64,000 bases of DNA. Source: a virus. A model generated the notes under the pieces. That model worked only from the letters and a program-made list of their open reading frames with translations. It had not been told where the DNA came from and searched no databases. The position numbers and the translations under genes were made by a program. Positions 3,518 to 58,200 of this stretch are shown one piece after another. Numbering within the stretch: position 1 is the stretch's first letter; each line of letters starts with the position of its first letter. The stretch lies in the IMG/VR virus record IMGVR_UViG_3300032046_000021, positions 1 to 64,000 of that record. One strand, written 5' to 3'.

Positions 3518-4957
3518 TCACCTTTGAGTTGTTCTCTTTTTTTCAGACGGATAATCGGGCCATACTGTATTACGCGTCTTTTCAGTAGCAATAATAGTGT
3601 CCTCGATACTACTGGTGCCAGGAGCAGTGTTATCTACTGGCTCCATTTCATCAATTTCAGCTTTCTGGTCCTCACTTAATGAAGGCAATCCCCACTCTGC
3701 TCTTATTTCCGTCCGAGTGAAACACCGAGACTGCCTCATTATTGCAACTTGACGCATAATCTCTGTTTTGTCCTTCTCCAATATCAACCTGAGCCTGATA
3801 TTCAAGTTATTCAAAACTTCATCGTACCGTCTACCAAACTTCACCTGTATACTCTTTCTAAGTACCCCTTCTAGTTGTGTTTTGATGATATCTGCAACTG
3901 ATAATGCCTGCAAGATAGCAAACGAACCACTCATTAACGCACTCGCATACGAAGTGTTACGTGAGACTGGCGGTAATCCCATAGCATTGGAAATAGCGTC
4001 ATTGATCTGTGCGATTTTCTGGTTTGGTTGTTGGTAATTGGTAGACTTCGGTTCCACATATTCAATTTCAGTATTCTTATCCGTCACCATACCAACGTCT
4101 ACTTGCCTACCTTGAATTCCCTGAGCATAAGTATCAGCCGCTGTTTGTGCAGCTGCTAACGCCTGTCTTTCACGTTCCTCTCTAGTGCCCTGATATTTCT
4201 CAGGCGAAAACTGCGACAAATCAATCTTATGCCACTCCCTAGGTACATTTCTATGTGACCATAAGATGTCGTTAATCATGGTATTGACTTTCCACTCTAA
4301 CGAAGAAAGTAGAGTTCGAGTCGGCGGTTTTGACCACACGCCATATGTCTTTCTACCCATAATGTCTACTAAGTACGTTGATTTAGCATTAAGTGAACAT
4401 TTGACACATGCAGTAGCATCATATATTTGTTGTTGTGAGGAGTCTTGTTCATTGGAAACATAGAAGTTGGGATTGAATATCTCGGCACTATAGTTTCCTA
4501 TTTGGTCTTTTGTTTCGACGGCAGTTAACTGGAATCGAGGCAGAGTTTCGATTTTCGTCACTCCGTTAGCTACATCCCAAACCATGTGCTTAACGACATC
4601 ACCATATTTCATGAGGTCGAATGCAGTGGAAAAGAATTCACCTTTGAAGTCTAGCTTGTACGCCATTCTCTTAGCTTCGTCCAGAAGTTCCACTTCATTA
4701 TCATCCAACTGCCTACCAGCCTCAATAGAGATGTCCGAAAACGCCTGTCTACTCATGTGTGCAATTCTGGATAGGTAACCGTATAAATCAGCATCAATGT
4801 CTATCATTGCATCGTATATTCGGTAGAAGTTCCCTTGCTTTGCTTCGGAAAAGAAAGAATATGGCCAGTTCAACGTCTGCACTATAGGTGGTTGCGATTG
4901 GGGAGTAGAGTCGCGAATTGCGCTTAGTTTGGCAGTTATCTTTTTCAGGAAACCCAT
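3518..4957 (-). CDS. Portal protein
   Basis: A 479-residue protein immediately downstream of the terminase large subunit (2-bp gap) and upstream of the protease. The N-terminal half (DAMIDIDADLYGYLSRIAHMSRQAF...) is typical of portal wing regions. A helical segment with NQKIAQINDAISNAMGLPP around residues 315-340 and SGSFAILQALSVADI at about 350-365 resembles the portal clip/stem area, where DNA-translocating dodecamers are formed. Length is normal for the family. The tail is polar and probably disordered. Confidence 0.8.
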   Translation of the reverse strand: MGFLKKITAKLSAIRDSTPQSQPPIVQTLNWPYSFFSEAKQGNFYRIYDAMIDIDADLYGYLSRIAHMSRQAFSDISIEAGRQLDDNEVELLDEAKRMAYKLDFKGEFFSTAFDLMKYGDVVKHMVWDVANGVTKIETLPRFQLTAVETKDQIGNYSAEIFNPNFYVSNEQDSSQQQIYDATACVKCSLNAKSTYLVDIMGRKTYGVWSKPPTRTLLSSLEWKVNTMINDILWSHRNVPREWHKIDLSQFSPEKYQGTREERERQALAAAQTAADTYAQGIQGRQVDVGMVTDKNTEIEYVEPKSTNYQQPNQKIAQINDAISNAMGLPPVSRNTSYASALMSGSFAILQALSVADIIKTQLEGVLRKSIQVKFGRRYDEVLNNLNIRLRLILEKDKTEIMRQVAIMRQSRCFTRTEIRAEWGLPSLSEDQKAEIDEMEPVDNTAPGTSSIEDTIIATEKTRNTVWPDYPSEKKRTTQR

Positions 4958-4958
4958 T

Positions 4959-6515
4959 TTACATTCCTCTTATTGTTGGTGCTAAAATTTTCCGATAATA
5001 CATGGGATGAAAAGGAATAGGCTCAACTGGTTTGCCTTTAAGTTCCCATACCAACTGTGCTAGTGCATCAGCGAGATCTTTAGCTCCTTTCCTAGGATGA
5101 TCCACCTTTTGGCCCCTGTAAATTTCCAAATTCGTCAACTCATCCTTTAGTGCTTCGTGCTCATAACAGTCAACTTCATGGAGCCGCCAGGCCTCCTTAA
5201 GGCGTTCGTGTTGTTGGAGTTTTACGACGTTGAATTCCACTTGAACTCCTGATTCTCGTATTTCAGCAATCGTTTCTGGGTAGTCCCAACGGTCCACAAT
5301 GAACTTGCTGATGTCGAAGCGTTTCTTTAAGGTTCCGATGAAGTACTTGACTTCCGTAGGATCAACTTCAAGTTTTGGAGCGATCTTATGTAGCAGGTCT
5401 ATGAATATGCGGCCATCTTCAGTCAAATGACCTAACGCCAGACCAAAAGACTCAAATTTGGATGCCGGATCGCCTGTTAACACATAATCAAAACTTCTAC
5501 TGCCCATCAACCAGTCCGCTATCTCGCCGTCTACTAGTACTGGATTCATTCTTTTCTTATTGAACTCGATTATCGAAACATCTGTATAATACTTTTCGAT
5601 AGCACGGGAAGGTTGAGCCCCGTAATCTCGCCAAGCTGCGTCAGGATCCTGTGCAAAGTCGTCCTGCAGCATTGCTTCAGTGATGTTAGGATTCATGTCC
5701 CAAGTCGCGTATTTGTATCCAAGCATAGTTTCGATACGTTTGGATTGTTCGTAAAGTTGATCTATGATGTCGCCTGAGTAGAGTGTTGAGGAAATAGCGA
5801 CTCGTCTAGCTTTCAGCGCGGGTACCTTCTTGGTACCACGACCAAGACCATGAAACACCGCCCAACCACTACGTCCACCTTTAGTATCCTGAAATCTACC
5901 TAACTCATCAAATAATGCAGCTTTAACTGCCCTTCCAACCAATGAGGCACTATTTGACCCACCACACTTTATCGTTACGTGCTTTTGTGGGAAACTGAAC
6001 TCATTATATCTTTCATCTGGATGTAACCATTGGAAGTATGGCGAGTTCTCTATCTTCCCTTTCTCTTGCGCGTATATGGTGTCGTGAGCTTGGTCATCGG
6101 AAGTAGCTACGTTAAGGACGAAAAATTCCGTACCCGAACCCGCACCGTAAAAGTGTACAGGGTCGTCAAGTGACAAGAGTTCGAATGCCTGCTGGAGTCC
6201 GATGCAGGAAGTGAGGAATGTTTTGCCTGAATTCATTCCAGCTTCTATTATCAAATCGTTATACTGTTGGACGTGAGCTTTAGTGAACTCTTCCATCTTA
6301 TCGGTACGTAAAGCATCCTCACGTAACCCTATCCATTCATCAATTGACATAGCCTTTGGGACTCCCCAGATAAATCGTCTGATAACGTCTTTTTCCAAAG
6401 GCCACATCTCCTGTCCCAAAAAGTATGGGTCCTCGCAGAAAAATATAGGATCAAACCTAGCCTGCAGCATCTTATGCATTTGCTCTTCGGGAGCTAGGTC
6501 TTCCCAGTTTTTCAT
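4959..6515 (-). CDS. terL: Terminase large subunit (packaging ATPase-nuclease)
   Basis: A 518-residue packaging motor. The Walker A motif GMNSGKT is at residues 93-99 and Walker B with catalytic acid ALFDEL at 200-205. The C-terminal RNase H-like nuclease has candidate acidic residues in LTGDPAS (D349), VDRWDY (D408) and RKGAKDLADAL (D480, D483). The protein translocates DNA into proheads through the portal and cuts concatemers. It overlaps the upstream small-subunit gene by four bases (ATGA) and precedes portal by two, so the three are probably co-translated. Confidence 0.88.
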   Translation of the reverse strand: MKNWEDLAPEEQMHKMLQARFDPIFFCEDPYFLGQEMWPLEKDVIRRFIWGVPKAMSIDEWIGLREDALRTDKMEEFTKAHVQQYNDLIIEAGMNSGKTFLTSCIGLQQAFELLSLDDPVHFYGAGSGTEFFVLNVATSDDQAHDTIYAQEKGKIENSPYFQWLHPDERYNEFSFPQKHVTIKCGGSNSASLVGRAVKAALFDELGRFQDTKGGRSGWAVFHGLGRGTKKVPALKARRVAISSTLYSGDIIDQLYEQSKRIETMLGYKYATWDMNPNITEAMLQDDFAQDPDAAWRDYGAQPSRAIEKYYTDVSIIEFNKKRMNPVLVDGEIADWLMGSRSFDYVLTGDPASKFESFGLALGHLTEDGRIFIDLLHKIAPKLEVDPTEVKYFIGTLKKRFDISKFIVDRWDYPETIAEIRESGVQVEFNVVKLQQHERLKEAWRLHEVDCYEHEALKDELTNLEIYRGQKVDHPRKGAKDLADALAQLVWELKGKPVEPIPFHPMYYRKILAPTIRGM

Positions 6516-7793: not shown

Positions 7794-7939
7794 AATGGGT
7801 GCCATCTAGCGTTCCCAAAAAAACACTTACAGTCCAAACCGTAAACACTTGAAACTTTACTCTGGGAATTCCGCAGAGTAAATTCTCGTAGAGATGACAT
7901 ATTCCGTCATTTTTATATATTAAATATTAAGATTCCTTA

Positions 7940-8069
7940 CTTAAGTATTACGACTTAAGATTACGGAGTTTATATTAAGTATTACGACTTATGACGTAAG
8001 ACTTGAGTATTAAGATAAAGGACTGTATATTAAATATTAAGACTTAAGTATTGTTAATTAAGTCTTAAG
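7940..8069. repeat. CTTAAG cluster 1
   Basis: CTTAAG occurs at 7940, 7954, 8043 and 8064, embedded in longer near-repeats such as GTATTACGACTTA and AAGTCTTAAGATTACGGA. The cluster ends at the last C before the cytosine-free tract. Similar clusters lie at 9113-9204 and, more loosely, 9841-10044. Possible roles are iteron-like origin sites, recombination sites or regulator binding. Confidence 0.55.
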
Positions 8070-8159
8070 ATTACGGAAGTAATATTGTATAGTAAGTAAT
8101 AGGAGTTAGGAAAGTATATAAATAAATTAATATTGAATAGTAAGTATTAAGATATAAAA

Positions 8160-8179
8160 GTTTAAATGGAAATGTAAAT
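8160..8179 (+). promoter_or_regulatory. C-less copy of the GTTTAC-N8-GTAAAC operator
   Basis: GTTTAA-N8-GTAAAT keeps the spacing and other bases of the palindromic operator found around the next two genes (for example 10134 and 10202), but each top-strand C has been replaced (C to A on the left arm, C to T on the right). Confidence 0.5.
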
Positions 8180-8212
8180 TTTAATATTATAAAAAGTTTA
8201 AAATTAAGGAAA

Positions 8213-8232
8213 GTTTAAATGTAAATGTAGAA
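8213..8232 (+). promoter_or_regulatory. C-less promoter-proximal operator
   Basis: GTTTAA-N8-GTAGAA lies immediately before a TATA box. It corresponds in position and sequence to GTTTAC-N8-GTAGAC at 10338 and GTTTAC-N8-GTTGAC at 9371, again with every C replaced by A. Confidence 0.55.
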
Positions 8233-8236
8233 AAGA

Positions 8237-8246
8237 TTTATATATA
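8237..8246 (+). promoter_or_regulatory. TATA box of the C-free operon
   Basis: TTTATATATA lies 38-47 nt before the ATG at 8284. Transcription would start near 8265-8275, so the mRNA to the T run at 9061 would contain no C. Confidence 0.55.
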
Positions 8247-8283
8247 AGTTTGTATATTATATAATTAAGGAAAGTGAAAAAAA

Positions 8284-8520
8284 ATGAAAATAAGTGAAAA
8301 AGTTTGGGAAAGTGGAAAAAGTTTGAATGGAAATGAGAAAAAGGAAAAAATATTGGAGGTTTTGGTAAAGGAAGGAATATGTGATATTGAGGAGATAAGG
8401 AAAGTAGGAAAAGAAAAGTGGATATGGGGAAGTTTGAAAAGTTTGGAAGAAGAAGGATTAGTGGAAAGTAGAAAAGTAGGAAAGAAGAAGTTTTATAGGA
8501 TAAAGGGGGTGGAAAATTGA
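8284..8520 (+). CDS. Small winged-helix protein, C-free paralogue
   Basis: A 78-residue protein (MKISEKVWESGKSL...) that aligns along its length with the proteins at 9449 and 11217. Shared features are the N-terminal WE.G, DI/DM..EI, KW.(W/Y/F)G..K.L and G.(V/L)E.(R)K..GKK..YR, a likely winged-helix fold with the wing at GKKKFYR. It has no Ala, Thr, Pro, His or Gln, because those codons need C. Leu is only TTA/TTG, Ser only AGT and Arg only AGA/AGG. It probably binds DNA as a regulator, but its target is unknown. Confidence 0.7.
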   Translation: MKISEKVWESGKSLNGNEKKEKILEVLVKEGICDIEEIRKVGKEKWIWGSLKSLEEEGLVESRKVGKKKFYRIKGVEN

Positions 8521-8840
8521 AATTTGAGAATTGGAGTGATAAGAGAATAAAAGAGGAAAATAGGAAAAGAGAAGGAATAAAGGAGGGTATGAAAATGAAA
8601 AGTTGGAAAGAAGTAAAAGAAGAATGTAAGGAAAATGGAGTAGATATGAATAGGTTGAATTGGGTAGATAAAAGAAAAGGAGGAAGAAGAAGGAAAGTTG
8701 TAGGAATAGGAGGAAGTGAGAAAGAAAAAGAGATAATGGAAAGAAATGGATTTAGGAAATATAAAAGTGTGGAAGTAGGAATGAGTAGAGGATATGGATA
8801 TTGGTGTTGGGTAAGGTTTGAAAAGGAGGTGGAAAAATGA
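8517..8840 (+). CDS. Basic protein of unknown function, C-free gene
   Basis: A 107-residue protein starting at a TTG that overlaps the previous stop (TTGA), preceded by GGGGGTGG as RBS. It is very rich in Lys, Arg, Glu and Gly (KRKGGRRRKVVGIGG near residues 51-65). The segment KEKEIMERNGFRKYKSVEVG followed by YGYWCWVRFEKE looks like helix then beta-strands, recalling a restriction-alleviation or RNA-binding protein, but I do not recognise a family. No Ala, Thr, Pro, His or Gln occurs. Confidence 0.6.
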   Translation: MKFENWSDKRIKEENRKREGIKEGMKMKSWKEVKEECKENGVDMNRLNWVDKRKGGRRRKVVGIGGSEKEKEIMERNGFRKYKSVEVGMSRGYGYWCWVRFEKEVEK

Positions 8841-9040
8841 GTTATAAAAGTTGGGGAGGAAGAAAAATAGTTAGGAGAAAAGATGTGAAAGGAAAATGTG
8901 GAGTTTGTGGAAAAGAGGAAGTGGAAATGATAGAATTGGAAAGGAAAGAAGGAGAAAGTGAGGAAATAGGATTAGTGATGGAAGTTTGTAAGAGTTGTAA
9001 GTATGTAATAGATTGGGGATTAGGAAAAGAGGATTGGTAG
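8837..9040 (+). CDS. Zinc-ribbon protein, C-free gene
   Basis: A 67-residue protein overlapping the previous stop by ATGA, with AAAGGAGGTGG as RBS. Two CxxC pairs (CGVC near residue 22 and CKSC near 51) form a probable zinc ribbon, with a basic N-terminus (GGRKIVRRKDVKGK). Third gene of the translationally coupled C-free operon. Nucleic-acid binding is likely but unproven. Like its partners it lacks all amino acids whose codons require C. Confidence 0.65.
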   Translation: MSYKSWGGRKIVRRKDVKGKCGVCGKEEVEMIELERKEGESEEIGLVMEVCKSCKYVIDWGLGKEDW

Positions 9041-9060
9041 AAGGATATTAAGTAAGAAAG

Positions 9061-9070
9061 TTTTTTTTTT
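9061..9070 (+). terminator. T10 terminator of the C-free operon
   Basis: Ten consecutive T, 20 nt after the stop at 9040, with no stem. U-tracts alone terminate archaeal RNA polymerase. Confidence 0.6.
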
Positions 9071-9098
9071 GTAAGTTTGGATTTTGGAAATTTAGTAT

Positions 9099-9317
9099 CG
9101 TAAATCGTACGACTTAAGTCTTACTTCTTAATACTTCATACAACTCACCTCACCCTCCCCAAATCTTAAGACTTAAGACTTCAGAAAGTGTCGTAAGTCT
9201 TAAGACTCAAGTCTTAATATACATCTTTCCAAAGTTCCTCTCTGTTTCCATTATAACGGAAAGTTCCAATAATATATAAATACTTTCCCTTGGTATCGTA
9301 AGTCTTACGACACGGAA
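9099..9317. repeat. CTTAAG cluster 2 (right edge of C-free tract)
   Basis: CTTAAG occurs at 9113, 9165, 9172 and 9199, including the perfect palindromes GACTTAAGTC (9111-9120) and AGTCTTAAGACT (9196-9207). Related GTAAGTCTTACGAC follows near 9299-9311. No gene is present. It mirrors the cluster at 7940-8069. Confidence 0.6.
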
Positions 9318-9337
9318 GTTTACACTTTTATATAAAC
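9318..9337 (+). promoter_or_regulatory. GTTTAC-N8 operator, distal copy for gene 9449
   Basis: GTTTAC-N8-ATAAAC, one mismatch from the perfect palindrome at 10134 and 10202. It lies 34 bp upstream of the promoter-proximal copy. Confidence 0.5.
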
Positions 9338-9370
9338 TTTTAAATGTTTAGGAGTAAGGAAAGTTAAAAA

Positions 9371-9402
9371 GTTTACACTTTTATGTTGACAAAATTTATA
9401 TA
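9371..9402 (+). promoter_or_regulatory. Operator plus TATA box for gene 9449
   Basis: GTTTAC-N8-GTTGAC (9371-9390) runs straight into AAAATTTATATAC. The same operator-TATA arrangement occurs at 10338-10369 and, without C, at 8213-8246. A repressor bound here would block TFB/TBP. Confidence 0.6.
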
Positions 9403-9448
9403 CTAGAAAGTATATATTATAAGTGGAAATAAAAGGAGGTGAAAAGGA

Positions 9449-9694
9449 ATGCAAATAAATGCGGAAGAATGGGAAGCGGGAACTGCAGTTTCGGCAAGCG
9501 AAAATAAGGAAGCAATTCTGAAAGCGTTTGCAAAAGTGAAGGGCAAAGGAATGGATATGAAGGAAATTGGAAAGCTAAGCGGACTAAAGTGGCCATATGG
9601 AGCAGTAAAGGCTTTAGTGGAAGATGGAAAGCTGGAACGCAAGCAGTTCGGAAAGAAGTTTGGGTATAGGATGGTAGAAGTTAAGGAGGAATAA
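9449..9694 (+). CDS. Small winged-helix protein, paralogue 2
   Basis: An 81-residue protein starting MQINAEEWEAGTAV after AAAGGAGGTGA. It aligns with the proteins at 8284 and 11217, sharing DMKEIGKLSGLKW and the wing GKLERKQFGKKFGYR. It probably binds DNA as a small winged helix. The promoter carries two copies of the GTTTAC operator, so it may be autoregulated or cross-regulated by its paralogues. Codon use is normal, making it a natural control for the C-free relative. Confidence 0.65.
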   Translation: MQINAEEWEAGTAVSASENKEAILKAFAKVKGKGMDMKEIGKLSGLKWPYGAVKALVEDGKLERKQFGKKFGYRMVEVKEE

Positions 9695-9976
9695 ACCTCC
9701 TAACTTTCCATCCTCCAAACTCCAACCTTTGTTTGAAATCCAACCGTGCAAAGTCGGAATTGTAGAACTTTGGCGGCGATGGGGTGAGCCCAACCATATG
9801 GCTGCCGGTAGTGTGGGAACCCGGGGCATGTCGTAAATCCTAAGACTCAAGTCTTACTACTTAAGTCTTAATGTACTCATCTGAACTCCTAAGACTCAAG
9901 TAACATACTTTACGATTACAATTTGCGTACGATCTAGACTCCGTATGACGGGCTTCCGAAAACGTTTCCAACATAA

Positions 9977-11216: not shown

Positions 11217-11459
11217 ATGCCAATAATTGATGAAGAGGAATGGGAAAGTGGAACCGCTTCTACTTCAGGCGCTACTGAATCAATACTGGAAGCGTTCAAG
11301 AACTTAGGAGCAAACAAGGGCATGGACATGGCGGAAGTCAAGAAGATCACCGGACTCAAATGGATCTTTGGTCCCATGAAGCAGCTGGTTGAGGCCGGCA
11401 AGTTGGAGCGCAAGAAATTCGGCAAGCGGTTCGCGTATAGGCTTGTAGCCCAAGAGTAG
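11217..11459 (+). CDS. Small winged-helix protein, paralogue 3 (MPI start)
   Basis: An 80-residue protein starting MPIIDEEEWESGT. The RBS is GAGGAGGTGA; the nearer ATG at 11213 stops after five codons. It aligns with 9449 and 8284 in DMAEVKKITGLKW, FGPMKQLVEAGKLERKKFG and YR. Likely a DNA-binding winged helix. It belongs to the group of early proteins with an MPI N-terminus. Confidence 0.65.
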   Translation: MPIIDEEEWESGTASTSGATESILEAFKNLGANKGMDMAEVKKITGLKWIFGPMKQLVEAGKLERKKFGKRFAYRLVAQE

Positions 11460-24158: not shown

Positions 24159-24359
24159 GTGGGTTCAGGTCAGGTAGGAAGATATGCATTTCCATCTCGT
24201 GCAGATGGAAAGTGCAAGAAGGGTCATGATTTGGTAGGAATCGTGAGTGTGAAGTTATTTTCGATAGGGAGGGACTGGTTAGTGGGAGGTTATCTTTTCT
24301 GTCCAGTTTGTAAGGTCATTTATCGGAAGGTGCAATCAGATGGTAAAAGAACGAATTAG
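24159..24359 (+). CDS. Small zinc-ribbon protein
   Basis: A 66-residue protein with a GTG start after AGAGGGA. CKKGHDL and CPVCK give a zinc-ribbon pattern. Overlaps queD by 20 bases. The 110-bp gap before it (24049-24158) contains a partial ACGGTTAA element near 24059 and no gene. Confidence 0.5.
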   Translation: MGSGQVGRYAFPSRADGKCKKGHDLVGIVSVKLFSIGRDWLVGGYLFCPVCKVIYRKVQSDGKRTN

Positions 24360-24753
24360 GATATTAAGTATCGATAGTATCGAGTTCGATGCAGCACATT
24401 ATATTCCGGGACATCCCAAATGTGGGTGTATTCATGGTCACACGTTCTTTGTTCGGAACCTAAGAGTATACTGCAACAAGTTTGTGGACTTTGGAAAGAT
24501 CAAGGAAGAGATCCGTCATTGGGATCATATACTTGTGATTCCGAAGAAGCATATGGACTTTTGGTACTCAAAAATTAATCCATTATTACATGAAATTGGA
24601 ATCAACCAATGCTTTATGATAGTTGATGGTGAGCCATCAGTCGAAGATATTTCGGATTTGATAGTAGCTCAGCTAAAAACTATTCCTGGAGTTGTTGATG
24701 TACACTTCACTCTTTGTGAAGGACCACATCAGAGAGTTGAGGGGTTTGAGTAA
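24340..24753 (+). CDS. queD: QueD, 6-carboxytetrahydropterin synthase
   Basis: A 137-residue member of the PTPS family. FDAAHYIP (zinc His20), CGCIHGH (Cys at the active site, zinc His32 and His34), VDFGKIKEEI and WDH (near 61-63) are all present, as is a late acidic residue in LCEGP. It converts dihydroneopterin triphosphate to 6-carboxytetrahydropterin, step two of preQ0 synthesis. It lies between a zinc-ribbon gene and queE. Confidence 0.87.
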   Translation: MVKERIRILSIDSIEFDAAHYIPGHPKCGCIHGHTFFVRNLRVYCNKFVDFGKIKEEIRHWDHILVIPKKHMDFWYSKINPLLHEIGINQCFMIVDGEPSVEDISDLIVAQLKTIPGVVDVHFTLCEGPHQRVEGFE

Positions 24754-24871
24754 GCCAGCAAAGTGCTGTCCTCATTGTGGTACGGATCTTAGTGACTATA
24801 CTCTTCCTTCAGATGAATATTGGAAAACTCGTTGCCCGTATTGCGGAGGTAAGTTAGATGTTAGTAAATGA
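24746..24871 (+). CDS. 41-residue zinc-ribbon protein
   Basis: TTG start after GAGGGG, overlapping queD by eight bases and queE by 14. CPHCG and CPYCGG (two CxxC) make a clear zinc ribbon. It lies between queD and queE, so its transcript is part of the deazaguanine operon. Role unknown. Confidence 0.5.
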   Translation: MSKPAKCCPHCGTDLSDYTLPSDEYWKTRCPYCGGKLDVSK

Positions 24872-25487
24872 AATCTTCGAATCAATTCAAGGAGAAGGTA
24901 CATACCTCGGATACCCCGCACTCTTTATACGTTTGCAGGGATGCAATTTGAAGTGTTGGTTCTGTGACACGAAGTATGCATTAGGAATGTATGAGGACGG
25001 AATGGATGTTAGGCCCGAAAGCTTGGTTGCGTTAATCAGAAACTCACCTTCCTATCACGTTGTGTTTACAGGAGGGGAACCTTTACTTCAACAGAAAGAG
25101 ATAGGTAAAGTTATACGTGAGGTTCAGAGAGCCAAGTTCTATGAAGTGGAAACTAACGGGACAATCAAGCCTAATATTGAGTTTTTGGTTCACCTTTTCA
25201 CAGTATCACCTAAGGATGACTTTCAAATTTCACCTAGCTTTTTCGAGATACCGGGAGTGGTTTTTAAGTTCGTGGTTGATAAAGAGGAGGATTTGGAGAA
25301 AATCGAGAACTTTGTAGACTTACACAACATCACAAGGCCAGTGTACTTGATGCCACAAGCTACTACACTGTTGGAGCATAAGAAGAAGTTACCGATGCTT
25401 TTTGAGTTCGTGAAAGTGCATCAAGGGCACTATAGGATTACGCCTAGGTTGCAGATTTTGGCGTATGGGAAGAGGAAGGGAGTTTGA
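24858..25487 (+). CDS. queE: QueE, 7-carboxy-7-deazaguanine synthase
   Basis: A 209-residue radical SAM enzyme. FESIQGEG at the start, the CNLKCWFC cluster motif (Cys29, 33, 36) binding a 4Fe-4S centre, and TGGEPLLQ for SAM binding are all present. It makes CDG from 6-carboxytetrahydropterin. RBS TGCGGAGGT lies inside the preceding small gene. Confidence 0.9.
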   Translation: MLVNEIFESIQGEGTYLGYPALFIRLQGCNLKCWFCDTKYALGMYEDGMDVRPESLVALIRNSPSYHVVFTGGEPLLQQKEIGKVIREVQRAKFYEVETNGTIKPNIEFLVHLFTVSPKDDFQISPSFFEIPGVVFKFVVDKEEDLEKIENFVDLHNITRPVYLMPQATTLLEHKKKLPMLFEFVKVHQGHYRITPRLQILAYGKRKGV

Positions 25488-27038: not shown

Positions 27039-27361
27039 GTCTGAAACAGAAAATCCAAGAAAAAGCCAAAACTATCAATGAATTAGAAAAAATCCTCTAC
27101 CAAAAATCAAGGTACGCCTCACGGGAATTCATCTATGAAAAAGACAAACAAGAAACATGGATTACGGTTGATGATGTCACTGCTTTGTTGGGTGAAGCCA
27201 CAAAATGTCCTAGATGTGGAGCAAATCTTCAAACTTATTGTCCTAATGCAAAATGTGAAGGCTACATGAGGGATGGGGATAAGGAACAATTCTACGATAA
27301 AAAATCTGGAAAATGGTTGGCTGTTTTGGGTGCGGATGGAAAGGAGAAGGCGAAACCATGA
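27035..27361 (+). CDS. Helical protein with zinc ribbon
   Basis: A 108-residue protein (MSLKQKIQEKAKTIN...), ATGA overlap with the previous gene. N-terminal helix, then CPRCGANLQTYCPNAKC, a zinc ribbon, and a small C-terminal motif (DKKSGKWLAVLGADGKEK). Directly upstream of the GTP cyclohydrolase with another ATGA overlap. Confidence 0.5.
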   Translation: MSLKQKIQEKAKTINELEKILYQKSRYASREFIYEKDKQETWITVDDVTALLGEATKCPRCGANLQTYCPNAKCEGYMRDGDKEQFYDKKSGKWLAVLGADGKEKAKP

Positions 27362-28044
27362 CACACGACGTTCAAGAAGAACAAGCTGATGATCTAGGAA
27401 TAATGGCAGGTATCTCTAACTACAGCATAGTGATAAAGTCCTCTAAGTGGACACTCTTCATTGAGTTGGAAGTGAAGGTTCCGATACTCAATAAACGGGG
27501 AGCACATATGAGCAGGTTGATATTCCCAGAGACAGTGAAGTGTGAGAGTGTTGAGCAGTTTATTAACGATGCAAAGAAGTTGATAAAGGAAAAAACTGGC
27601 GTTTACCCCTACATCAAAATGGTGTTTAAGTTTCCGTGGAAGGATCAGTTTCCAACTATTATCGTCGAGAACTATATTGCCATAGGAAATGAATACACGT
27701 ATATTATGAAAGGGATAACTGCGTGTCCTTGTTCAAAGGAAAGCATAGGTATCGGGCATATGCAGAAGTGTGAGTTGAAGATAAAGATAAATGCTAAACT
27801 TCCACACCCCAAATTTGAGGACATATTTAGGTTGATGGAAAGTTGCTTTTCTGCATCGTTGACGGAGAAGTTGAAGAGAGATGAGGAAGCTGCTAAGATT
27901 AAGGAAGCTCAGGATAATGCAAAATTCGTCGAGGATGTCGTGAGGCACGCGATTATGAATATTCCTAATATTAGGTATGCGAGAGCAGAGTCGGATGAAA
28001 GTATTCACAGTCATAAGGCGGTAGCGGAGTGGTGGAGGAGGTGA
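27358..28044 (+). CDS. GTP cyclohydrolase, MptA/FolE2 type
   Basis: A 228-residue protein; ATG chosen after AAAGGAGA with ATGA overlap. Family landmarks: RGAHMSR (47-53), ACPCSKE with metal-binding Cys (123-125), GIGHMQ (His134, Gln136) and ESIHSHKAVAE near the end (Glu214, His217). These enzymes open GTP to begin pterin and deazaguanine synthesis. Here it supplies QueD. The archaeal flavour (MptA) fits the host domain, though FolE2 cannot be excluded. Confidence 0.82.
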   Translation: MTHDVQEEQADDLGIMAGISNYSIVIKSSKWTLFIELEVKVPILNKRGAHMSRLIFPETVKCESVEQFINDAKKLIKEKTGVYPYIKMVFKFPWKDQFPTIIVENYIAIGNEYTYIMKGITACPCSKESIGIGHMQKCELKIKINAKLPHPKFEDIFRLMESCFSASLTEKLKRDEEAAKIKEAQDNAKFVEDVVRHAIMNIPNIRYARAESDESIHSHKAVAEWWRR

Positions 28045-28049
28045 CTTAG

Positions 28050-28772
28050 ATGGAAGTTATGGTTACAAAATCTCAACGTTCGACAGTCGTATCTCCAGCA
28101 TTTAGTAAACCTTCAACAAAGGTTGTAATGTTGTTGAGTGGGGGAGTTGACTCTGCTACCTTAGCATACTATTTGCTGAAACAGCATCAGGAAGTATACG
28201 CACTGACTGTTGATTATGGGCAAAAGCACTTTAAGGAACTCCGAGCAGCCGTAGAAATTGCTCATGCTGCAGGTATAAGTTGGAAAGTTCTTGATTTACG
28301 AACGTTACAACCTCTGCTTAAAAGTGCATTGACTACTAATGATCCAATCCCAGAAGGCCACTATACTGCAGAGTCTCAGAAGTTAACAGTCGTACCCAAC
28401 AGAAACGCTATCCTATTGAACATTGCTGCTGGCTACGCAATTAGCATAGGCGCCAACACTATTGCGTATGCTGCACATAGGAACGATAGGACAATATACC
28501 CCGACTGCAGGCCAGAGTTTGTGGGCGCGTTACAGGCAGCATTGGATGCCGGAACAGATGCAGATTTACTGGTATATGCACCGTTCATTAACATGACGAA
28601 GGCGCAAATTGTGGAACTAGGTATATCATTGAACGTTCCCTTTGAATTAACCTGGTCATGTTATAAGGGAGGACAAAAGGCGTGTGGCAGGTGTGGAACG
28701 TGTGTGGAACGATTAGAGGCATTTGCGTTGAATCATGTTAAGGATCCAATTGAGTATGAGGGAGTAATATGA
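28050..28772 (+). CDS. queC: QueC, 7-cyano-7-deazaguanine (preQ0) synthase
   Basis: A 240-residue protein with RBS GGAGGAGGTGA. PP-loop SGGVDS at residues 30-35, VDYGQ near 54-58, VPNRN, and a C-terminal zinc cluster (CYKGGQKACGRCGTC) are all present. It uses ATP and ammonia to turn CDG into preQ0. The last biosynthetic step before the QueF reduction and DpdA insertion. Confidence 0.92.
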   Translation: MEVMVTKSQRSTVVSPAFSKPSTKVVMLLSGGVDSATLAYYLLKQHQEVYALTVDYGQKHFKELRAAVEIAHAAGISWKVLDLRTLQPLLKSALTTNDPIPEGHYTAESQKLTVVPNRNAILLNIAAGYAISIGANTIAYAAHRNDRTIYPDCRPEFVGALQAALDAGTDADLLVYAPFINMTKAQIVELGISLNVPFELTWSCYKGGQKACGRCGTCVERLEAFALNHVKDPIEYEGVI

Positions 28773-28930: not shown

Positions 28931-29689
28931 GTGAAGTTAGCAATAATCAGTCCAACAGTACACCTAACCGAACTTAGTAGCCTAGGGGACATTCAGTTTG
29001 CTCTTGGTCATGTTAAGGATCTTAAGTACGTTGAGTACTATCGTGAACAAGCAAAACAAACGTACACTATTATGGATAACGGAAGTTATGAACTTGGCAA
29101 GAGCGTCAGTTTTGACGACATATTCGAAGCAGCGGAAGAGATAAAGCCTGACGAAATCGTCGCACCGGATGTGCAGTGGAATCCAGTTGAGTCTCTGAAT
29201 CTAACTCGACACTTCATGAAATATGCGCATGGGCGCGGGTTACGAGATAAGTACAAGATTATGGTTGTTGTCTGGGCGTTTGACCCAGGAGACTTTCCGA
29301 TGTGGTACAAGGAGTACCTCAAGTTGAACCCCGATGTAATTGGTATCGGAAAATGGCTGTCAACGAAATTCCTAGCAAGGCCTAGTGTTGTTCAATTGTT
29401 GAAATATGAGCATATGTGGAAGAGTGATATTGAGCACCATTTTCTGGGATGTGGTTTTCCTGGCGAAGCACTCCAACTGCATGATGAGGGGCGCTCAATG
29501 GACACTAGCGGACCAATCGCCGATGCTATGAATGGGTTGAGATATGTGGAAGGTGAGGAATACTTAAACCTTCATACGAGTTCGTTGAAGAGGAGTTTGG
29601 ACTTTAATGCCCGGTTAACACCTGAGCAACTCGAAATAGCCAAAGCAAACTGTCGGTTAATGTTAACCTATGCACATGGAGGAAAATAA
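28931..29689 (+). CDS. dpdA: DpdA-like DNA guanine transglycosylase
   Basis: A 252-residue protein with a GTG start after GGAAGGGA. It resembles the TGT-like DpdA proteins of phages: IMDNGSYELG (Asp49, probable catalytic region), EIVAPDV (Asp80), an internal TIM-barrel-like alternation and FLGCGFPGEAL. Known DpdA enzymes exchange guanine in DNA for a 7-deazaguanine base. It ends the pathway encoded upstream. Length is that of short phage DpdA, without the RNA-binding or zinc parts of tRNA TGT. Confidence 0.72.
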   Translation: MKLAIISPTVHLTELSSLGDIQFALGHVKDLKYVEYYREQAKQTYTIMDNGSYELGKSVSFDDIFEAAEEIKPDEIVAPDVQWNPVESLNLTRHFMKYAHGRGLRDKYKIMVVVWAFDPGDFPMWYKEYLKLNPDVIGIGKWLSTKFLARPSVVQLLKYEHMWKSDIEHHFLGCGFPGEALQLHDEGRSMDTSGPIADAMNGLRYVEGEEYLNLHTSSLKRSLDFNARLTPEQLEIAKANCRLMLTYAHGGK

Positions 29690-53838: not shown

Positions 53839-56800
53839 TTAATACTTCCTTGCGAATTTGAGAATCTTCTTAACTATCTTCGATTCAATTATCTTATCAG
53901 CTAGTTCGATAGTTAGCGTTCGGTTAGCTAGTTTAAGTATCTCAATCATCGCAACAATTATCTTTGTAGCAGTACCAACTGTTGCTATGGTCATTGTTGC
54001 TGACACCGCAACGAAGAACTCTAGGAAGAACTTTCTTCCTTTAGCTATAGCTGTAGTGATAATTTGAGCAGTTACTTTTCTAATGCTCTGGAAAGTTCGC
54101 TTCGTACTTCCAGTCAACGTTGCACTGGAGCTTACGATTCTTCGTATCACGAGTCTTCTGATTGTAGCAGCTGTTTGTGCTAATGTCGCAATACTGGTTC
54201 TTACAGTCATTCGAAGTCGTCCGGAACTACCAATTAGATTCAAGGTTGCAACTTTGGTTCGCTTAAACACTGCAACCCTTTTAATAGTTGCTACCATTGA
54301 TAATGTTGTAGCTTTGAATCGTGTTACAACAGCTAACCTTTTGATTACTGCAGCTAAGTTCAATGTCGCTGAGACCAATCTGAAGAAGGCTCTTGCACTC
54401 AGAGCAGAAGCTGACATTGCCATAGAAGCAGCTGCATGTTTAATAAGTGCACCGATCCTATGAGTTGCTGCACTTATTGTAACACTCGCAGAAGTGAATC
54501 TAGTTACTATTATACCACGAGCTGTATTTCCTACCATTGTTAAAGTTGCCGATGCTACTGCCATAAGTCCGGATAGTATTTCTATAGTTGCATGAAGGGC
54601 AACTACTGCAGAAGCATATCGTGTGATAATTACTGCACGGAAAGTGCTTCCAACAGTAACTATTGTTGCTATAGCATGTCTTATAGCCAAGAGTGTTGGC
54701 TTAGTGATAGCGATCAATGTCATTCCTGCAATTGCTTTGCGTATTGTGACATACAATCTTGCTGGTACGCCCAATACGCTAACAGCTGCTGTAACTCCTC
54801 TTGTAAGTATCAACTGCTTTATAGTTGTAGCACTAATTGCTAATGAGCCTGCAATACTCCTGGTTAATGCTGTCAATCGTCGTGGCACTCCAGCTAACCC
54901 GATTGAAGCAGCACTTAACTTGGTTACTATGATCGTTCGCATTGCTGTAGCACTAGCAGTGATACTGGCACTCGCAATTGCATATATTCCACTCAGTACC
55001 CTAGTAAGACCGATTAGACCGATACTTGCCGATGCAAGTTTTGTTACTATGATACTTCTTAAACTAGCACTAACTACAGTTATTGAGGAAACTGTAGATC
55101 GGATTGCAGCTACAAGGCGTGTAGTTGCTCCAGCAGTAGCTACTGATGCAACTGCCGATCTAACAAAGATCAGAATTCGAGTAGCAGTGCCAGTAATAGT
55201 TGTTGTAGCTGAGACTATTCGAACAAACACGCCACTTTTTGCAGTAGTAGCTATCACGCTAAGTGCGCTTGTTACGAACCGAAGAGCTCCTTTCAATTTG
55301 CCTGTAATTCCCACTAAACCAATGGTAACTGCACTGAATCTAGTTACTACAATTGTTCTTATTGCTGTAGCTGTTGTGGTGATGTGGGCACTAGCAGTAA
55401 CTATTAATCCTGAAAGTGCCTGAGTGATACCTACAAGTCCAATGCTCGCAGATGCTAACTTTGTTACTATGATACTTCTTAGACTTGTACCTGTTGCAGC
55501 TATCGATGCAACTGCAGATCTTATCAGAATTGAGAGTCGTACAGTTGTACCAGAAAGGGTTGTTGCAGCTGAAGCTACTCTTGTAAATACCTTACTCTTT
55601 ACGACAATTGCTGCTATACTAAGTGTACTAGCAGTAGACCGAACAGCCCCTATAAGTCTACTTGTAACTCCAGCTAGACCAATTGAAGCTGCTTTGAATC
55701 TAGTTACTGTAATTGCCCTTACTGATGTGGCAGTTGCAATGATGCTAGCACTGGCACTTACGATTACTCCAGCCAGCACTTCAACAATACCGATTAAACT
55801 GACACTTGCTGATGCGAATCTTGCTACTATAATACTTCTTAAGCCAGTACCAGTTGTAGTTATTGAGGAGATCACAGACCGAATTGCAGCTAGATATCTT
55901 ATGGTTGCTCCGGCAGTAGTTATAGATGCAAATGCTGACCTAATCTTAGTTGAAAGCATTATGGTTGTGCCTATTATAGTTATTGTACTAGACACTTTCT
56001 TAATGAGTGCTACTATTCGTGATGCTGCTTCTGCTATTGTAATTGCAGCAGCTGTAAACCTTGTTGTTACTATTGAACGAACAGCAGATCCGACAGCAGT
56101 AATTGATGCTCCTTTAGCCCGTAAGAATAGGACATTACGAACGGTAGACGCAACTGTTTGTATTCCAGCAGCTACATCTCTGAAGAACGCTCTTGCTCCT
56201 AATACGCTTCCTACTAAGCTAACTCCGGCTGCTGCTACCCTAATCGAAATGATACTTCTGATAGTTGCGCTAGTTGTAGTTATTGACGCTATCACACTTC
56301 GTATTTTGGCTTGAAGTGCTCGGGTAGTTGCTGTTAAGGAAAGTGAACTAGTGATCGAACGAGCTGCTGCTAAGACCTTATTAGTAGTTCCTGCGATAGA
56401 AACAGCAGCCAACGTTATCCTTGCCATAAGAGATCTTCGTAAACTTGTAGCAACAATAGTAATGGTTGCAACTACTATTCTAAAGCTAGCTATTACTTTA
56501 TGTACTGTACCAGTGATTGCTACAGTTACTGCAGCAAATCTTGTCAGAACTGCATGTCGTGTTGTGTTTCCTACCATTGACATAGCAGCTGATGCAATAG
56601 CATTGAAGCCTATTGTGCTAAACGCTTTCTCTAATCCGTATATCCATGCAAGTAGAGAAGTCTTTATTGTTGCCACTGCACTCATTGTTGCAGCAGATAA
56701 TCTAGTGAATAACGATGAGCGTACTGCATTTCCAACAACCGATAAAGTGGCTGTCTTAATACGAGTATGGAATGCGTTTCGGATAGCGTTTCCAACTGCC

Positions 56801-58200
56801 GTTATTGAACTACTTTGAATCCGAGTAAAGGAAACTAGCCTTTTAGTCATACCCACAACTGATAACGTTACACTTTGAAGTCTGTAAGCAGCTTTAGATC
56901 GTACTGTTGATCCTAAAAGTTCGAGCGTGGCCGTAGCATACCGTAAGAACTCCTTTGTTATCTTGAAGCTAATTGCAATACCTGTTAAAGTGAAAGAACT
57001 GCTTGCTTGTCTAATGCGATTCCGTATCCGAGAAGCCGATACAACTATCGCAATACTACCTGATAAAAGTCTAGACAGTACGGTAGTCCGCATTGTACTT
57101 CCAGTTACAGAAACTGTTCCAACTACCTTTCGTATGAAGCTTTTTATACTCGCAGTTGCACTGGTGAAATTGAGAGTACTAGAGATAAGTCTGGTAAACA
57201 CTACCGATCGAACTGTACTGCCAATAGTCGTGAAAGTACCAGTAACTGAACGCAACAAGCTAGACAACCGTTTCGTAGCTGCTGCAACATTAATTGTTGC
57301 TAGACTGAATCGTACGGCATTCCTAATGCGTTCTGTGGAACTAGCCATTCCAATTGCAGAAGCTGTTGTTCTTATGGTATTAATCAGTTTAGCAGACTGT
57401 CCGACAAGATTAGTTGAAACAGCCTTTGTACGGATTAAAACCTGTAATCTTACCGAACTTGCTACTGCAGAAATTGCTGTACTAGCATGTCTGATTACCT
57501 GGCTCAACTTGGTTATTGTAGCAACTAAACCTAAGGTAGCAGTTTTGGTTCGCGTAAGCAACCGTACCTTTTTTGGAGAACCAATTAATGAAACACTACC
57601 AGTTTTGGACCTTGAGTGTGTTCCTAATCTTCTCGAAGTTCCTGCAATTGAAAAGGCTCCAACCTTGGAACGTGACATTTGACTAAGCTTAGTAGTTGCA
57701 CCAGCTAGTGCAAATGCTGCAACTTTCGGACGTAATGCTCTTAGTAACCTACTCCTTGTTTCGACAATACCGACTGTAGCAGTTTTGCTTCGAGTTACAT
57801 ACCACACTCTTTTTGCTGTTGTTGTTGTTGTTAATGTTCCAGTTTTTGTTCGTGTTCCTATCCACCCTCGTTTCGTAATTGAAGCTGTTGCTATATTTGC
57901 TATAACAGTTCGTACTAGTAGTGTGATTTTTACTTGCATTCCCCAAGGATAAGTCGCAGTATTGATTGCGATAGTTTTAGTTGCGCTCATTGACGTAACT
58001 TTGATAGTGTCACCATTATCGCAGCTGCTTGCATACCAGTCCGTACGCGTAATAGTGACGTTGTACTCACCTAGACTGTTCGTCTGAACTGTATGCTCTT
58101 GTCCTTTAGTGTCATTTCGGACAGTTACGTTTTCAGCATCTTGTACGACACCGTCTTTCTTAATTACGCCGTAAATGATGTATGGAGTAGTGAGTGTCAT
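53839..58200 (-). CDS. Giant repeat protein, about 63 twenty-residue repeats
   Basis: A 1,453-residue protein. The ATG at 58200 overlaps the upstream stop (TAATG); a longer frame upstream is inside the previous gene. Residues 1-95 look like a carboxypeptidase-regulatory/Ig-type domain (VIKKDGVVQDAENVTVRND, LGEYNVT). From about residue 125 to 1395 it is a string of 20-residue units, with Arg/Lys first, then S/T/A-rich alternating hydrophobic positions, for example RSKTGSVSLIGSPKKVRLLT. Only two units are irregular. Likely a long beta-solenoid fibre. The C-terminus (about 60 residues) is a hydrophobic-basic helix. Confidence 0.75.
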   Translation of the reverse strand: MTLTTPYIIYGVIKKDGVVQDAENVTVRNDTKGQEHTVQTNSLGEYNVTITRTDWYASSCDNGDTIKVTSMSATKTIAINTATYPWGMQVKITLLVRTVIANIATASITKRGWIGTRTKTGTLTTTTTAKRVWYVTRSKTATVGIVETRSRLLRALRPKVAAFALAGATTKLSQMSRSKVGAFSIAGTSRRLGTHSRSKTGSVSLIGSPKKVRLLTRTKTATLGLVATITKLSQVIRHASTAISAVASSVRLQVLIRTKAVSTNLVGQSAKLINTIRTTASAIGMASSTERIRNAVRFSLATINVAAATKRLSSLLRSVTGTFTTIGSTVRSVVFTRLISSTLNFTSATASIKSFIRKVVGTVSVTGSTMRTTVLSRLLSGSIAIVVSASRIRNRIRQASSSFTLTGIAISFKITKEFLRYATATLELLGSTVRSKAAYRLQSVTLSVVGMTKRLVSFTRIQSSSITAVGNAIRNAFHTRIKTATLSVVGNAVRSSLFTRLSAATMSAVATIKTSLLAWIYGLEKAFSTIGFNAIASAAMSMVGNTTRHAVLTRFAAVTVAITGTVHKVIASFRIVVATITIVATSLRRSLMARITLAAVSIAGTTNKVLAAARSITSSLSLTATTRALQAKIRSVIASITTTSATIRSIISIRVAAAGVSLVGSVLGARAFFRDVAAGIQTVASTVRNVLFLRAKGASITAVGSAVRSIVTTRFTAAAITIAEAASRIVALIKKVSSTITIIGTTIMLSTKIRSAFASITTAGATIRYLAAIRSVISSITTTGTGLRSIIVARFASASVSLIGIVEVLAGVIVSASASIIATATSVRAITVTRFKAASIGLAGVTSRLIGAVRSTASTLSIAAIVVKSKVFTRVASAATTLSGTTVRLSILIRSAVASIAATGTSLRSIIVTKLASASIGLVGITQALSGLIVTASAHITTTATAIRTIVVTRFSAVTIGLVGITGKLKGALRFVTSALSVIATTAKSGVFVRIVSATTTITGTATRILIFVRSAVASVATAGATTRLVAAIRSTVSSITVVSASLRSIIVTKLASASIGLIGLTRVLSGIYAIASASITASATAMRTIIVTKLSAASIGLAGVPRRLTALTRSIAGSLAISATTIKQLILTRGVTAAVSVLGVPARLYVTIRKAIAGMTLIAITKPTLLAIRHAIATIVTVGSTFRAVIITRYASAVVALHATIEILSGLMAVASATLTMVGNTARGIIVTRFTSASVTISAATHRIGALIKHAAASMAMSASALSARAFFRLVSATLNLAAVIKRLAVVTRFKATTLSMVATIKRVAVFKRTKVATLNLIGSSGRLRMTVRTSIATLAQTAATIRRLVIRRIVSSSATLTGSTKRTFQSIRKVTAQIITTAIAKGRKFFLEFFVAVSATMTIATVGTATKIIVAMIEILKLANRTLTIELADKIIESKIVKKILKFARKY

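Follow-up and report, generated by a model that had tools for sequence, protein, structure and literature searches.

A cytosine-free operon in a probable archaeal virus, and further cytosine-free genes in unrelated archaeal elements

Why would a virus carry an operon, together with its signals, from which one of the four bases is entirely missing? The question is raised by a locus in the 67,308-base virus record IMGVR_UViG_3300032046_000021, of which 64,000 nt (positions 1-64,000) were analyzed and are referred to here as the window. The first-pass annotation had claimed a 1,024-base tract without cytosine on one strand, and a direct count bore this out: the flanking Cs lie at 8074 and 9099, and between them there are 469 A, 300 G, 255 T and 0 C. 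In the rest of the window no C-free run is longer than 48 nt, and even the C-poorest 500 bases there contain 53 C (10.6%), a frequency at which 1,024 C-free bases would arise by chance with a probability of about 10^-50 (10^-72 at 15% C). C is also the sole base that a protein gene can leave out entirely, since the start codons (AUG/GUG/UUG), the Shine-Dalgarno sequence (GGAGG) and the three stop codons require A, G and U.

The most likely source is an archaeal head-tailed virus, judging from the likeness of its PolB to those of haloarchaeal tailed viruses (23%), the archaeal appearance of its promoters, and its terminase gene. The C-free operon is placed where the structural genes of the - strand meet the early genes of the + strand, and is divergent from the terminase (Table 1). 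A tRNA search found none, and an Rfam search returned no match. When homologs of ORF1 (by single sequence and by paralog alignment), ORF2, the terminase and the DpdA-like protein were sought in viral contigs, only a sister virus was retrieved, and the search of genome contigs for the terminase found none. Elsewhere in the window, a repetitive 1,490-aa protein is encoded on the - strand at 53839-58311, with many long + strand ORFs opposite.

Table 1. Features of the window, with positions in the 64,000-nt stretch
Feature	Position	Strand	Basis or remark
Terminase large subunit	4959..6515	-	phrog_17415, E 5e-17
Left flank, AAGTATTACGACTTAAG-type repeat copies with ordinary C	7916..8074	.	
Difference-free block between two virus genomes, ~1.8 kb	7980..9750	.	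rest differs by ~4-5%
C-free tract, 1,024 nt (- strand G-free)	8075..9098	+	direct count; identical in second virus genome
Second TATA-like box TATATAAA, GGAAAG (BRE-like) in front	8115..8122	+	inference from sequence
TATA box TTTATATA, probable promoter of ORF1-3	8237..8244	+	homologous to promoters of the 9449 and 10409 genes
ORF1, 78 aa, winged-helix DNA-binding protein	8284..8520	+	paralogs, AlphaFold model, PDB folds
ORF2, 107 aa, no known family; TTG start or internal ATG at 8589/8595	8517..8840	+	
ORF3, 67 aa, CxxC...CxxC zinc-ribbon-like protein	8837..9040	+	weak matches
T10 terminator	9061..9070	+	
Right flank, repeat family common to left flank	9096..9311	.	
ORF1 paralog, ordinary C content	9449..9694	+	
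ORF1 paralog, ordinary C content	11217..11459	+	
QueD (PTPS family)	24340..24753	+	PF01242, E 1e-7
QueE-like radical SAM enzyme	24858..25487	+	PF04055, E 2e-11
GTP cyclohydrolase FolE2	27313..28044	+	PF02649, E 4e-29
QueC	28050..28772	+	PF06508, E 1e-66
DpdA-like DNA-guanine transglycosylase homolog	28931..29689	+	

Genes, edges and origin of the C-free tract

The three ORFs of the tract are coupled via overlapping stop and start codons, and are improbable as chance open frames (P ~1e-4, ~7e-6 and ~5e-4 for ORF1, ORF2 and ORF3, respectively); they are therefore regarded as genuine genes. For ORF1, an ArsR-type HTH match (E 9e-6) fell below the cut-off, the AlphaFold model has an H-H-H-E-E order with a pLDDT of 74.5, and the fold matches in the PDB were pNOB8 AspA and the ArsR/SmtB family. 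The weak matches of ORF3 were to DUF5679 (E 0.01), the TFIIS ribbon (E 0.24), Churchill (E 0.044) and RPA12 (E 0.5). The promoter, the genes and the T10 terminator all fit within the tract, as the first-pass annotation had it; the picture needs correction only in that the tract outruns the transcription unit at both ends, starting 162 nt before the nearer TATA box and 40 nt before the upstream one, and ending 28 nt beyond T10. The cost to the proteins is evident, for the 252 residues of ORF1-3 include no Ala, Pro, Thr, His or Gln, which make up 21.8% of the neighboring proteins. Neither the wobble positions nor the UTRs contain any C, and the same holds for the codons at large; T too is rare at free third positions of the tract genes (GGT 1 vs GGA 27; ATT 1 vs ATA 14).

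A sequencing or assembly artifact is excluded, because the same 1,024-nt tract is present in an independent virus genome (IMGVR_UViG_3300032070_000007) and other metagenomes and MAGs contain further C-free operons. A single chemical or enzymatic conversion, whether bisulfite-like or by deaminase hypermutation, was likewise rejected: from the codon usage of the neighboring genes, changing all C to T or all C to A is expected to produce stops at about 4-5% of codons, i.e., some 11-13 in 252 codons, and none was found; moreover, T is not raised in the tract (25% vs ~26% nearby) and A is (46% vs ~33%). The winged-helix core of ORF1 has been retained despite the loss of C. The window virus has three C-containing paralogs of ORF1 (at 9449, 11217 and 20324), and the function of the protein therefore does not require the bias. 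ORF1 keeps 23 of the 42 positions at which two C-containing paralogs agree on a residue needing no C, and is substituted at all three positions at which they agree on Ala or Thr. Because of this pattern of retention and replacement, and the absence of conversion stops, we conclude that the tract evolved under a lasting ban on C and yet stayed functional. The earlier inference of strong selection or a strand-specific process is thereby supported, a one-time conversion or mutational event being excluded.

The flanks form an imperfect inverted repeat around the operon (7997-8053 / 9160-9216, 74%), and their arrays are built of a AAGTCTTAAGACTTAAG-type repeat. The difference-free block that spans the operon suggests, on the comparison of two genomes, a cassette that was recently exchanged or is recently shared. 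Directly 3' of the tract the strand bias flips, with a 51-nt G-free run at 9119-9169.

Recurrence in other archaeal elements

The first-pass annotation had also proposed a search for homologous operons elsewhere. When 784 archaeal genomes from two phyla were scanned with a minimum length of 195 nt, the C-free tracts that emerged were mostly tandem repeats, which were not counted as genes, plus three high-complexity, gene-bearing tracts (L136, L137 and L138); viral contigs, scanned for a strong RBS with 170 C-free bases, yielded two more (L290 and L291). These five non-repetitive tracts (271-544 nt) lie on unrelated archaeal virus or mobile-element contigs. L136 (351 nt) has two coupled ORFs, and its contig also encodes a portal protein and both terminase subunits, small and large. 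L137 (311 nt) has a single 102-aa ORF on a contig that encodes an ArdC anti-restriction protein and includes proteins resembling those of the L136 contig. L138 (271 nt) runs from a TATA box to a T8 terminator and encodes a zinc-ribbon-like protein on a contig that is not clearly viral; L290 (444 nt) has two coupled ORFs and a T10; and L291 (544 nt), in the 68.5-kb virus G789, has a 66-aa ORF and a T12. The carriers of L137 (G093) and L136 (G245) belong to one order of 53 genomes. As a possible host link, the DNA of window positions 1-20 kb was compared with this order, which also holds G138, and no spacer-grade match was found.

In all six loci, the gene strand is the C-free strand. In four (the window, L290, L291 and L138), zero C spans the TATA box, RBS, genes and poly-T terminator; in the other two, L136 and L137, the tract opens 29 nt downstream of a promoter-like CTATTATT / CATTATTT element, at about the predicted transcription start, and the C-free stretch extends from there up to, or close to, the point where the last gene ends, L137 having four Cs in its last codons. 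The C-free leader and trailer measure 209/58 nt in the window, 169/24 in L290, 154/189 in L291, 51/16 in L138, 21/4 in L136 and 16/-14 in L137, and recognizable poly-T terminators are always inside the C-free tract. The G-free strand outruns the transcribed part by 40-190 nt in the window, L290 and L291. No similarity was seen among the proteins encoded at the six loci; the convergence, seen at no fewer than six unrelated loci, is therefore at the level of nucleic acid, i.e., base composition, and not of a gene family. The loci have in common the absent base and their arrangement as transcription units. No gene-bearing tract was found in a control set of 297 Bacteroidota genomes, in which all C-free tracts over 195 nt were repetitive or gene-less.

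Several other sequences were set aside. L108 and L118 were rejected as genes, being stop-ridden or without a start, and L145 (229 nt) was rejected for its repetitive DEIVDEV protein; the latter (G138:C28, oriented 315-543) is a semi-repetitive C-free tract with an RBS and a VVDEIVDEV-repeat peptide, and remains an uncertain member. An anti-SD hairpin pattern gave only generic matches in viral contigs, with a longest C-free run of 96 nt in 1.1 Mb, and a second pattern (SD+ATGGA+C-free) gave no match. Upstream of the C-free genes in L136 (1352-1525) and in the reverse complement of L137 (~1252-1520, oriented), there is a GC-rich structured element that ends in T8. Next comes a hairpin, formed by the pairing of T8(A)CTCC with GGAG(T)A8, which would hide the RBS in read-through transcripts; an extra A/T pair covaries between the two loci, and the region has no Rfam match. 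In L290 (oriented), a G-poor CTCATCTCACC-type stretch lies right after the C-free tract (~4462-4545), mirroring the upstream flank. Near the C-free gene of G410:C13, a 1,144-aa ORF (L146:1031-4465) combines metallo-beta-lactamase and ATP-dependent DNA ligase domains.

Guanine-modification genes and candidate causes

The phenomenon is solid, while its cause is inferred. A lead is offered by the genes for preQ0 synthesis in the window virus and by the product of 28931-29689, which is likely homologous, if distantly, to DpdA/TGT by profile and sequence comparison: its best PDB match was the DNA-guanine transglycosylase 7ui4 (E 0.003), followed by queuine TGT (E 0.16), and among the phage proteins matched by tblastn, one group, from Flavobacterium phages, is annotated as DNA guanine transglycosylase (E 1e-3). 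QueC ends 159 nt upstream of this gene, FolE2 is just before, and QueD/QueE are 3.4-4.6 kb upstream; the relatives of the gene in BSP7, Youna2 and G789 have the same preQ0-gene neighborhood. G789, whose PolB is 29% identical to that of the window virus, independently encodes FolE, a DpdA-like enzyme, QueC and QueE. The preQ0 genes and a DpdA-like enzyme are thus present in both C-free viruses with near-full genomes, and QueC is found in 316 of 50,697 phage records (0.6%). In archaeal tailed viruses, the preQ0/DpdA pathway is known from the family Druskaviridae, besides one lone DpdA (PMC8651126). The association of C-free operons with modification genes, resting on two genomes only, is suggestive and not proven. 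The QueC of G789 (L303, 62109-63194) has an in-frame insertion of ~120-140 aa between its conserved halves, possibly homing-endonuclease or intein-like.

Our leading, though tentative, reading is that the tract is a complete transcription unit purged of C by selection, and that it serves as an escape operon evading the virus's own 7-deazaguanine block, the block itself being inferred in the absence of expression data. A C-free transcript implies a G-free template, on which RNA polymerase would never read a template G and never need CTP. If a DpdA-type enzyme replaces G in the viral DNA, the G-free template strand could not carry the modified base, and host RNA polymerase might read the operon straight from modified DNA; the operon products (winged-helix and zinc-ribbon-like) would then be the first to act, with transcription or the host as their target. 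Such an escape, or pioneer, operon, readable while ordinary genes are blocked, is likewise inferred without expression data. That the G-free strand continues beyond the transcript in the window, L290 and L291 fits a cause at the level of DNA. Nonetheless, only two C-free carriers were long enough for the DpdA check. No C-free run exceeds 51 nt in the bacteriophages BSP7 and Youna2, which have a DpdA of the same family, or in the part of halovirus HCTV-5 that was read; modification by itself is thus not enough to impose the C-free state. Almost every other gene of the window virus has Gs on its template strand and yet needs to be transcribed at some time. In other viruses, moreover, 7-deazaguanine accounts for a fraction of the Gs, e.g., ~30% in HVTV-1, and no transcription block was reported (PMC6884629).

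The main rival, possible though rather unlikely in our estimate, is that the host removes CTP or makes a chain-terminating analog such as ddhCTP (viperin/SAND), so that the C-free mRNA of a probable counter-defense operon would still be expressed. The C-free stretch indeed tracks transcription units, with UTRs and wobble positions affected besides codons, C is the only base that a gene can spare, and an ArdC anti-restriction protein is also on the L137 contig. Antiviral nucleotides of this kind are known, as eukaryotic SAND/viperin generates ddhCTP and the prokaryotic homologs generate antiviral ddh-nucleotide analogs (PMC9642334). Bona fide viperins exist in archaea, two control genomes exceeding the curated cut-off (NF038283), but none of the four MAGs with C-free tracts did so, with the proviso that a MAG need not be the host of the virus, so that this negative lowers the CTP reading without excluding it. 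The reading is further weakened by the four Cs in the final codons of L137, and by the 40-190 nt of C-free DNA in the window, L290 and L291 that are not transcribed and need no CTP. Because of this excess of G-free strand in the three longest cases, together with the shared modification genes, the modified-guanine cause is ranked above the CTP cause, these two being the best-fitting candidates. The absence of C throughout the mRNA, untranslated parts included, would also be expected if a C-specific RNase (e.g., an ancillary nuclease of a type III CRISPR system or a toxin that cleaves at C) destroyed ordinary transcripts and spared C-free ones; this we hold to be improbable, as the ribonucleases of this kind known to us need a motif and not any single C, and would not require an absolute ban over 1,024 nt, and the C-free DNA beyond the transcript is left unexplained. 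Quite improbable is a deaminase or nuclease that attacks the Cs of the strand displaced in transcription, such that a heavily transcribed operon lost all targets: the pattern is indeed strand-specific and linked to transcription, but a C-to-T process should raise T, which it has not, and where promoter positions are homologous it is mostly A that replaces the lost C. A purely translational cause, such as tRNA loss, is unlikely, since C- and U-ending codons share one tRNA and yet C is gone from wobble positions and UTRs. Lastly, a functionless drift of AT- and purine-rich viral DNA to zero C is already disfavored and, in our judgment, highly improbable. C content is indeed low in the early genes of these viruses (12-17%), and in G789 C-free runs of 60-83 nt do arise by chance; however, the probability of the tract is below 10^-49, its edges are sharp against C-containing flanks, and there are five other gene-bearing cases and none in the 297 Bacteroidota genomes.

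Relation to known systems, and meaning

The first-pass annotation knew of no natural C-free coding stretches of this length. Our literature search for cytosine-free genes, from which most subscription journals were outside coverage, likewise found no report, although shorter relatives of the phenomenon do exist. To our knowledge, therefore, C-free operons are new in kind, and no comparable strategy has been described. G-less and C-less cassettes for in-vitro transcription are similar as templates transcribed without one NTP, but they are artificial and non-coding, whereas the window tract is a natural coding operon. In phage T4, with its hydroxymethylcytosine, transcription tells modified from unmodified DNA, and Alc halts RNA polymerase on C-containing DNA. 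The analogy lies in a virus-encoded base modification tied to which DNA is transcribed; the difference is that T4 uses a stopping protein, while in the window virus a whole operon avoids the base. The viperin/SAND defense would exactly spare a C-less transcript, but no viperin exceeded the cut-off in the four carrier MAGs, and we know of no viral escape by base omission. In gene content there is a likeness to 7-deazaguanine modification by preQ0 and DpdA, whose pathway genes and DpdA-family enzyme are encoded by the window virus and G789; C-free genes (on a G-free template) are unreported there, however, and there are none in BSP7, Youna2 or the HCTV-5 stretch. The papers on 7-deazaguanine (PMC6884629) and viperin/SAND (PMC9642334) draw no link to base-free operons.

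Overall, we lean toward the view that archaeal viruses have repeatedly evolved three-letter, C-less genes that would remain open to expression when modified DNA or a nucleotide-directed defense silences normal genes. The loss of one base and five amino acids reveals a pressure able to override protein sequence. If modified guanine is the cause, this would be a first sign of 7-deazaguanine gating transcription in viral DNA; if CTP is the cause, it would expose an archaeal nucleotide-directed antiviral defense along with its counter-measure. With either cause, C-free tracts provide a simple search handle, as they mark those few viral genes on which most depends at a critical point of the infection, and C-free operons point to an unrecognized way of keeping genes readable when ordinary transcription is blocked.
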